Origin: Astrocystis sublimbata
Taxonomy: Eukaryota > Ascomycota > Sordariomycetes > Xylariales > Xylariaceae
NCBI GenBank assembly: GCA_022453515.1
Contig: JAJNNY010000054.1
Coordinates: 186,001 to 250,000 of the forward strand
Direction: 5' to 3'
DNA: 64,000 nucleotides
Positions 14,297-43,641 of this stretch are shown here, piece by piece (position 1 is the stretch's first letter; each line of letters starts with the position of its first letter). A program made the translations under genes and the position numbers. Below the pieces are notes generated by a model. That model searched no databases, was not told the origin of the DNA, and was given only the letters and a program-made list of their open reading frames with translations.

Positions 14297-15073
14297 ATGC
14301 CTTATCTTCTCCAGGAGGTGAAAGATGCAGGGGGTTTCGATGAGATTCTAGCAATGCTCCATACCGCGTTTGAGGAGCCTTACAATCCTCTGCACCGTTG
14401 GTTCATGCCTGTTTACACAACAACCGAAGCCGCAATCGAAGCGACAAAGCAAAGGATCATCAAACACTGGAGCCACGACGAGAACCTTTACTGGTTTAAA
14501 GTCACGGACACAGAGACGGGAAAGATTGTTGGAGCAGCGGAATGGGCGATACGCGAGCGGATTAACCATCCGGGAGAAGTGCAGAAACCCATCGAAGCTC
14601 AATGGCACCCAGAGGGATCCGACGAGATGATTTTTGCAGGGAAACTGGTGACAAGCCTCAAGAGCTTCATGAAGGAGAGGATGACACAACCACATGTCGG
14701 TAAGTGACTGGAAGAATCCGGGATAGGAAAATGAACCGATCCATTAATACCAAAACAAGAGCTTGAGCAGTTAGTAGTTGCCAAAGAACACCGTCTGAAA
14801 GGTGTGGCCACACTTCTGATGAACTGGGGTAAGCAGAAGGCTGATGAGCTCGGAATCGACTCGTGCGTCGAATCGGTTCCAACCGCGGTACCCGCCTACG
14901 AGAAAATGGGGTACGGGAACGTTGACAGTCTTCGTCCCGACGTTGCAATTCAGGATCCTAGTGAAAAGTACCAGGAGTATGCAAAAGAGGAATTGCGCGT
15001 CTTCTTGATGTGGCGTCCAGCTGGACATGATTACGATGGGTTGAAGGATAAGGCACATTGGAAAAGTGTCTAG
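14297..15073 (+). CDS. GNAT-family N-acetyltransferase
   Basis: Two exons, 14297-14699 and 14760-15073, encode 238 aa; the start MPYLLQEV is the in-frame ATG closest to the conserved region. Acetyl-CoA-binding motif A is LVVAKEHRLKGVATLLMNWG, with R-x-x-G-V-A taking the place of the usual Q/R-x-x-G-x-G/A pyrophosphate loop; the following PTAVPAYEKMGYGNV is motif B, where the YEKMGY turn is typical. The N-terminal half (AFEEPYNPLHRWFMP, IVGAAEWAI) matches the fungal subgroup of small cytosolic GNATs whose acceptors are mostly uncharacterised. The intron falls just before motif A and preserves frame (PHV-ELEQL). No neighbour suggests a substrate. Confidence 0.88.
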
Positions 15074-41012: not shown

Positions 41013-43641
41013 ATGCCTCCGAGAAGAAAGAAGGCCGCTGCCCCAGCCAGCCCCCCATTCGACGGCTTCACCATAGCCATCAGCGGCGCTTTTCCCAAAC
41101 GCACTCAGAAGTCTATTCATGAAGACTTAATTGCCCCCCTGGGTGGTGCACTGGCCACATCCGTTTCGGCTTCAACCACTCATCTCATCACAACCGAAGC
41201 CGACTACCATAAGCCGTCAGTAAAAGTCAAGGCAGCCCAGGCACAGGATATCCCCATAGTCACCTTCCAGTGGCTTGAAGACTGCTCCAGCCAGAACACT
41301 CGCCTGGACGAGGCTAGCTATCGCTTTGATAAGCCAGCCCCGGCCCAGGCAGATGGCTCCACTCAGATTGCCTCACTCAAGCGAACAGCATCAAAGGTAG
41401 CGCCGGACGACAACGATGCCCAAGTGCCCCAGCCCAAGAAGAAGGGCAAGGCCGCAGAAGAGGCGCCAAAGGAAGAGAAGGAGCCCAAGATCGCTGATGG
41501 TCAAATTGCCAAATCCATGGATGCTAAGATTCCACTCGATGAGGGCGCAGACCGTGAATTGGCCAGTTATGAAGTGTACATTGACGATGACGGGGTCATC
41601 TTTGATGCTTCCCTGAATCAAACGAATGCTGGGAGAAACAACAATAAATTCTATCGGATTCAGGTAAGCCAATAGCTTGCCTCGACTTATGTTCTCGCTC
41701 GTCTTTGTCCACTTATCCGTACACCATGCTAACACTATTTCTCAGTTGCTGCGCAATGTTGCTGGTGATTATCGTACATGGACACGATGGGGTCGTGTTG
41801 GCGAATACGGCCAATCCAAACAAGTCGGCAACGGCACCTTCAAGGATGCCTTGAAAGAATTTCACGGCAAATTCAAGAACAAATCCGGCTTGTCATGGGA
41901 CGACCGTCTCGAGCCGCCAAAGGCTAACAAGTATGCGTTCATTGAGAGATCCTATGAGCCTGACTCGGACGAAGAGGATGGGGGCGGGGATGGGGATGAA
42001 GCCGACGCGGACGTCAAGAAAGAGGAGGAACCGGAGTCCAAGCTATCGAAACCAATTCAAGACCTTATGAGGCTTATCTTCAACCAGGAGTACTTCACGA
42101 ATGCGATGAGCGATCTCAACTATGATGCGGCTAAGCTACCTCTCGGAAAGCTCAGCAAAGCCACTATCACCCGAGGTTTCCAAGCGTTGAAAGATCTTGC
42201 GGCACTCCTGGACGATCCAACTCTTGCGGCTTCACAATATGACACTAATTTTCCAAACGCAGCTGAGCAACTGTCGAATGCCTTCTTCACTATTATTCCG
42301 CACGCTTTCGGTCGTACCCGGCCGCCTGTCATTCAGTCCCAAGCCGCACTTAAGAAAGAAATAGAACTTCTCGAAAGTCTTGGAGACATGAAAGATGCGG
42401 CCCTTCTGATGAAGGCGGATAGGAAGGAGGATATAAATGAGGTGGACCGCCAATTCCGTGGACTTGGCTTGAATGAGAGTAAGTCCATCTTTCAACCCAA
42501 ACATGGGCATTGTTACCTACCTCTCGTGTTCTTTCTCGGCATAGCAACGGAACATTGATACATTTTTTACTAACGACCAGCCAGTGACACCACTAGATCA
42601 CAAGAGTGACGAATTCGTTCACTTGAAGGATTACTTGATGGATACGCGAGGGTGGACTCATAACGCCAAGTATTCAGTAGCACAGATCTTCCGGATTGAA
42701 CGAGACGGCGAATTCGGTCGGTTCGATGCAGTACACAAAACCCCTCGCGATCGGCGCCTCCTATGGCACGGCTCTCGTTGCACCAACTTTGGCGGTATCC
42801 TAAGTCAGGGACTTCGAATTGCGCCGCCAGAGGCTCCAGCTACGGGCTATGGTATGTACCCATTTCTTTTCTGTTACATTTCTACAAAGACTGGTACTAA
42901 CTCGCTACATAGTACGTACACCATTTCTCAGGCTACAGATTCACACCTTTTGCTCGGCCTTATAGATGGGGTCCTCACTGCCCGAACGACGTGCTAACCG
43001 TCTATAGATGTTTGGAAAGGGAATCTATCTAGCAGATATGTCCTCGAAGGTAAAAGGTCCCGAGTTTTCGCGAACCAGAACCAGAACCTTGGCTAACAAA
43101 CGTAATAGTCTGCCGGCTACTGCTGGCCAAACATCTCGAATGGGCATGCCCTTTTACTTCTATGTGAGGCCGAACTAGGCGATCCTTTGCAAGAATTGAC
43201 AAATGCCTCGTACAATGCCAACGATACCGCCAAAGCCAATGGCATGTTATCAACATGGGGTCAAGGTAACACCGGGCCCAATGCCTGGAAAGACGCATCA
43301 TGTGTCAATCCTGCTCTGAAGGGTGTAAAGAGTAAGCATTGCGACGGTCTCCTATCTCATTTTGCTGATGCATACGTACAATTGAGCGAATCGGCCTGTG
43401 CACGCACATTGCCTACTCTCTCGGATAGCATCAACACACAACACACGATGCTTGTGCATTCTGTCATGACCATTCTGTGATTTCTTTGCATCGATTGCTA
43501 ACATGACGCGTCACAGTGCCCGATACAACAGTGGCACCTGGCCCGACCAACATCCCCAACACTTACCTGCAATACAACGAGTACATATGCTACGATATTT
43601 CTCAAGTACGGCTGCGATATCTCTTGCGAGTCAGAATGTAG
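41013..43641 (+). CDS. Poly(ADP-ribose) polymerase, BRCT-WGR-regulatory-catalytic
   Basis: Six exons (41013-41663, 41746-42478, 42585-42850, 43008-43049, 43109-43331, 43517-43641) give 679 aa. An N-terminal BRCT domain (FDGFTIAISGAFPKRTQ to TFQWLEDC), a Lys-rich linker, a WGR domain (TWTRWGRVGEYGQSK), the helical regulatory domain (IQDLMRLIFNQEYFTNAM, PLGKLSKATITRGFQAL) and the ADP-ribosyl transferase fold follow in order. The H-Y-E triad is present: H523 in LLWHGSR, Y568 in SKSAGYCW, E660 in YNEYICYD, so poly-ADP-ribosylation is expected. It would use NAD+ to mark chromatin proteins at DNA breaks in the nucleus; the fungal relative is PrpA. The exon 3-4 junction (GY-MFGKG) only works with a nested intron at 42851-43007. 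Start chosen as the first in-frame ATG. Confidence 0.94.
42851..43007 (+). other. Nested twin intron (stwintron, D1,2 type) in the PARP gene
   Basis: The inner intron is 42852-42912: donor GTATGT, branch TACTAAC at 42895-42901, acceptor CATAG. Its removal places G42851 next to TACGTA at 42913, creating the outer donor GTACGTA. The outer intron then runs to TATAG at 43007 with branch GCTAAC at 42993-42998, 96 nt after inner splicing. Removing everything in one step from 42852 leaves an extra G and breaks the frame before ATG TTT GGA; two-step removal gives the conserved GYMFGKGIY. Confidence 0.82.

Follow-up and report, generated by a model that had tools for sequence, protein, structure and literature searches.

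Spliceosomal twin introns (stwintrons) consist of an internal intron nested within an external one. In the [D1,2] class, the internal intron lies between the first and second bases of the external donor. More than 1,500 [D1,2] stwintrons are reported for the Hypoxylaceae in the main text of PMC9024468, where 68 of 81 unique ones occur in all or most of the species assessed. A preliminary description of the locus treated here had assigned it to a class known in ascomycetes, which stands; its remark that each case is notable has been overtaken by these numbers. A second [D1,2] group, the sister stwintrons, propagates within genomes and is marked by near-terminal inverted repeats that give a terminal RNA stem.

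The present element lies in a poly(ADP-ribose) polymerase (PARP) gene of Astrocystis sublimbata. Positions refer to the window, the whole 64,000-nt stretch of DNA that was analysed, which belongs to contig C140. The exon model, its translation and Pfam define a PARP1/2-type gene at 41013–43641 on the plus strand (exons 41013–41663, 41746–42478, 42585–42850, 43008–43049, 43109–43331 and 43517–43641). The product of 679 aa carries BRCT, WGR, PARP_reg and PARP catalytic domains, and is closest to PARP2 among solved structures (PDB match, E 1.2e-96), with PARP1 next. A paralogous PARP gene on contig C46 has an intron of 100 nt at IAPP|EAPVNGYAFGKG, so the site is not common to both genes.

Between a tyrosine codon (TAT) and a methionine codon (ATG) stands an element of 157 nt in phase 0 (42851–43007, plus strand). 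The locus reads GGC TAT G|GTATGT...TACTAAC...CATAG|TACGTA...GCTAAC...TATAG|ATG TTT. Two nested sets of splice signals had been proposed here, and they were confirmed to the base: an inner intron at 42852–42912 and an outer one made of G42851 plus 42913–43007. At the 5' end a single G precedes a complete internal donor (G|GTATGT, 42851–42857). This G (42851) is the first base of the split external donor, and the frame shifts if it stays. The internal intron (61 nt) has donor GTATGT, branch site ACTAAC (42896–42901) 38 nt after the donor, and acceptor TAG 8 nt after the branch site. This acceptor is joined directly to TACGT, the remaining part of the external donor, forming a hybrid motif at 42910–42917. 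The remainder of the external intron (42913–43007; 96 nt counting G42851) continues from its split donor G|TACGT for 75 nt to branch site GCTAAC (42993–42998), then for 6 nt to acceptor TAG (43005–43007), followed by ATG TTT (Met-Phe). The spacing of external branch site and acceptor falls within the range allowed by the [D1,2] formula of PMC9024468. The two introns also start alike, window positions 42852–42867 reading GTATGTAC-CCATTTCT and 42912–42928 reading GTACGTACACCATTTCT. The score of their common start, GTAYGTAC(A)CCATTTCT, was equalled in 19 of 2,000 shuffles with splice signals kept. Such likeness is at most suggestive of a tandem duplication as the origin of the two introns, which we do not claim.

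We put at roughly 0.93 the probability of the best explanation, in which the element is a [D1,2] stwintron whose two introns leave one after the other, in a set order, by separate U2 splicing reactions. (i) The internal intron (42852–42912) would leave first, bringing G42851 and TACGTA together as a donor, GTACGT. (ii) This donor would then act with the branch site at 42993–42998 and the acceptor at 43007 to join TAT to ATG. Loss of the whole 157 nt, in phase 0, leaves the BRCT-WGR-PARP_reg-PARP protein unbroken across the junction, and alignment places a GYMFGKG-type family sequence at the same point in the PARP2 of the PDB. The spliced translation thereby bears out the earlier claim that two-step removal, with the inner intron between donor bases 1 and 2, yields the exact family sequence. 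The order and efficiency of splicing are inferred. If only the distal sites were used (42852 paired with 43007), one intronic G would remain and the frame would shift; if only the inner intron were removed, translation would run into the external intron and stop. From the window DNA, the distal-site product is predicted to read GYDVWKGNL... and to end at 583 aa, and the inner-only product to read GYVRTPFL... and to end at 567 aa; the frames computed for partial splicing measure 567, 583 and 598 aa, against 679. The predicted truncated products keep the BRCT, WGR and regulatory-domain stretches and stop early in the catalytic domain. The catalytic residues of PARPs are the tyrosine of TGY and a glutamate near the C-terminus. 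Given these residues and the truncated frames, mis-spliced products would probably lack enzyme activity.

Simpler splicing was enumerated across the junction. For one GT-AG intron (minimum length 40 nt) there were 13 in-frame readings, none of which kept GYMFGKG. Readings with two introns around one micro-exon (GT or GC donors; first intron at least 40 nt, second at least 35) numbered 432 in frame; MFGKGIY was kept in 58 and GYMFGKG was given by none. Only two of the 58 combine a first donor at 42852 with a GT at the second; in both, that second donor is GTCCTC and the second intron is 37 nt long. The preliminary description had held that no phase-correct small exon with acceptable donors exists; no enumerated reading with a micro-exon gave the family sequence. 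The conserved frame returns when the entire element is taken out, and no simpler enumerated splicing achieves this. The [D1,2] stwintron is thus the only reading found, and a supported one, that would give the family protein with ordinary GT-AG sites.

The alternative that survives best is a damaged gene, with one ordinary intron at 42852–43007 and an extra G introduced by frameshift mutation or by faulty sequencing. It accounts for the strong donor at 42852 and for the fact that a single splice leaves exactly one surplus base, which breaks the frame as had been foreseen (583 aa). The rest of the gene is, however, complete and open according to the exon model and Pfam, and the nested signals would have to be a coincidence. 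When 7 bases at the start and 15 at the end were kept and the interior was shuffled, the loose formula was matched in 62 of 20,000 and the strict formula in 3 of 20,000. The same extra G would also be needed in differently named genomes, whose predicted proteins read GYDVWKG (P0021), GYDVRKG (P0062), GYDVWER (P0067) and GYDM (P0016). Damage to the gene is therefore very improbable. Slightly less probable still is a variant catalytic loop, produced by two separate introns around a small exon or by another acceptor. Two predicted proteins lend this some colour: P0001, the deposited A. sublimbata PARP, uses an acceptor within exon 4, and P0009 has an insert of 13 residues at this place. Yet every enumerated alternative deletes or inserts residues, neither of which is seen in any of the 83 listed non-Xylariales proteins, and readings that start from the strong first donor and keep MFGKGIY rely on GTCCTC, GCCTTA or GCTCGG as second donor. 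Least credible of all is one intron opening at a non-canonical GG (TAT|GGTATG...TATAG|ATG): it would give the correct protein in one step, but would need GG-AG borders next to a consensus GT and would leave the internal branch site, the internal acceptor and the reconstituted donor unexplained.

The deposited model itself bears on the stwintron reading. P0001 matches the spliced protein throughout, except that eight conserved residues, MFGKGIYL, are absent. Enumeration reproduces its junction, GY|ADMSSKS, with a single intron of 181 nt at 42852–43032. The public model is wrong at exactly the putative stwintron site, as a mis-called intron of this length would make it.

How often the motif arises by chance was assessed in the window and in the genome. 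The published formula (PMC9024468) matched the window twice on the plus strand (42851–43007 and 14699–14833) and never on the minus strand, and dinucleotide shuffles of the window (n = 30, both strands) gave a mean of 0.1 matches. In the match at 14699–14833 the external part resembles coding sequence by eye, and the match may be due to chance. Genome-wide (42.6 Mb), the strict pattern of an inner intron plus split donor was found 10 times, the PARP element included; the same pattern backwards was found once, as was a control with YAG changed to YGA. When the authors of the published formula examined a Hypoxylon genome, they found 90 of its 282 motif candidates to be authentic (PMC9024468, main text). 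The [D1,2] motif is therefore no proof by itself, and the reading frame supplies the remainder.

Among the other genome matches, one on the minus strand (L010; G000:C110:393384-393459) also makes a good [D1,2] candidate and spans 173 nt altogether. Once it is removed, a single open frame reads ...CSERSAKN|MAFQGVTPWG..., in what we take, from the sequence, to be a leucyl-tRNA-synthetase-like gene. Eight more matches (L007, L008, L009, L011, L012, L013, L014 and L016) are candidates by pattern; in L008, L012, L013 and L014 an external acceptor is present and the frame of matching phase stays open after it.

Predicted proteins of relatives offer a second line of evidence. Three protein searches, with the best 120 of each retained, yielded 165 different proteins. 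Among those listed, the GY|MFGKG junction was broken in 30 of 75 named Xylariales, in 5 of 7 unnamed Xylariales-like proteins and in none of 83 others, some of which are near copies of one another (several from Alternaria). P0021 was counted with the Xylariales despite its label, Lasiodiplodia mahajangana; it groups with Nemania (Xylariaceae) in the tree, and the genome label looks wrong. When the list was ranked on the N-terminal 280 residues alone, so that the scar could act through the length limit only, the junction was broken in 28 of 71, 5 of 7 and 0 of 42 of the matches listed for the same three groups. Among the first 144 proteins, the 73 named Xylariales all had the four conserved upstream stretches, and 56 had the stretch across the junction; two downstream stretches were present in 63 and 64, the losses (10 and 9) arising partly because models truncate. 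In the 64 other proteins of this set each upstream, junction and downstream stretch was present in 63 or 64. The figure of 30 in 75 overstates the support for a stwintron, since breaks in the Hypoxylaceae and in a Diatrypaceae-like clade probably have another cause. Four archaeal or bacterial PARP loci (L017–L020) from a prokaryote collection were left out of this comparison, and a pattern search of a viral collection for relatives' DNA at the PARP site returned one stretch and no relatives.

A tree of 89 rows was built with FastTree from residues upstream of the junction. In it 28 of 86 inner branches are weak, long branches were flagged, and the outgroup is not separated cleanly, being joined by P0069 and P0119. 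The Xylariaceae clade holds 41 models, of which 19 are broken and 22 intact. Two kinds of break are telling. Six models (P0001, P0016, P0021, P0027, P0062 and P0067) read as if one extra G followed TAT, P0027 less strictly than the other five, and four (P0061, P0065, P0066 and P0068) read GYVR and soon stop. Some independent agreement with the stwintron reading comes from these 10 rows, which read like one or the other of the two faulty [D1,2] products predicted from the window DNA; GYVR could in principle also come from a retained canonical donor GTRCGN. All 10 lie inside the Xylariaceae clade (41 of 82 rows), an outcome with a chance of 0.0005 under independence of the rows, an assumption that does not hold. 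Within the clade both types are scattered singly, with 6 and 4 changes on the tree, as many as in shuffles. The other nine broken models are not diagnostic. Four read GYG: of these, P0029 and P0081 resemble products in which GGTATG was read through, and P0049 (GYGIYLADM) is better explained by a cut immediately behind TAT than by an extra G. Five are of other kinds. The preliminary description had pointed to related fungi as a place to compare the position: in predicted proteins the 10 of 41 rows fit, the nine are undiagnostic, and the 22 intact models say nothing for or against a stwintron. From these proteins we infer that the stwintron is conserved in Xylariaceae and that its site is apparently old.

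Relatives outside this clade seem to carry different introns at the same codon, either a canonical phase-0 intron (Diatrypaceae-like) or one shifted by a single base (Daldinia). Six of nine models in the Diatrypaceae-like clade are broken. Five read GYVS, which, with codons deduced from the amino acids, is what would be translated if a canonical donor GTRAGY were retained immediately after TAT. Ten of 22 Hypoxylaceae models are broken, seven reading GYS. For Daldinia bambusicola (P0126) the letters on the 5' side fit TAT A|GT ATG, and those on the 3' side require TG TTT to be preceded by G or C rather than A; with codons deduced in the same way, these letters would place the intron one base further on. 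Three models reading VFGKG (P0048, P0057 and P0058) agree with P0126 on the 3' side, P0145 and P0060 misfit a simple one-base shift, and P0064 is ambiguous. On the view of a shifted intron, the Daldinia DNA is expected to read TATAGTATG...AG|TGTTT.

These states permit a tentative and rather doubtful proposal, that the PARP codon boundary preserves a series of introns: canonical phase-0 in the Diatrypaceae-like clade (GYVS), a phase-0 [D1,2] stwintron in Xylariaceae, and a one-base-shifted intron in Daldinia (TAT A|GTATG ... AG|TG TTT), whose donor stands at the same base as the stwintron's internal donor. Splicing of the stwintron at its distal sites, together with one compensating base loss, would have moved the intron by one nucleotide, and by a different route from the published [D1,2]/[A2,3] mechanism. 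An alternatively spliced [D1,2]/[A2,3] stwintron must be followed by an exon that starts with G, according to the relevant part of PMC5639578; exon 4 here begins with ATG, so this route is closed. If DNA confirms three clade-specific states, the boundary would be a compact test case for the origin and persistence of stwintrons and for intron shifting.

Recognition of such elements has practical weight. An unrecognized stwintron can damage the public record: the deposited PARP lacks eight residues of its catalytic domain, and many models from relatives break at the same codon. Such annotation scars may offer a cheap route to conserved stwintrons from protein databases alone.

Searches of the literature found nothing on a twin intron in an ADP-ribose polymerase, or on PARP introns in fungi or Xylaria. 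The main texts of the stwintron papers searched do not mention PARP, and in that of PMC9024468 the terms PARP, ribose, ADP, WGR and BRCT are absent. With the sister stwintrons of Xylariaceae and Hypoxylaceae (PMC12403724), the PARP element shares [D1,2] nesting and the order Xylariales. Sister stwintrons are multi-copy, similar in sequence and typically species-specific, whereas the copy number that marks these propagating elements is not seen here: a search of the same genome that skips simple repeats and very common words returned only the query itself at E up to 10. The RNA fold is not unusual (z-score −0.38); the best structure has three pairs at the 5' terminus and the centroid none. Like the lipS [D1,2] and bioDA [D2,3] stwintrons treated in PMC5639578, the PARP element appears to sit at an old site that in other fungi is taken by a standard intron. 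Those stwintrons lie in other genes and have a history drawn from DNA, with cDNA for lipS, whereas that of the PARP element is drawn from predicted proteins alone. The closest resemblance is to the unique [D1,2] stwintrons of the Hypoxylaceae, as set out in the main text of PMC9024468. Host gene and fungal family differ. Nesting, signals and spacings (search model A), occurrence as a single copy in the genome and an apparently old position are alike, and the faulty product reported there, a frameshift from use of the distal sites, is the one predicted here. Since the [D1,2] kind is abundant in Xylariales, the PARP element is best regarded as a new member of it, apparently at an old site.
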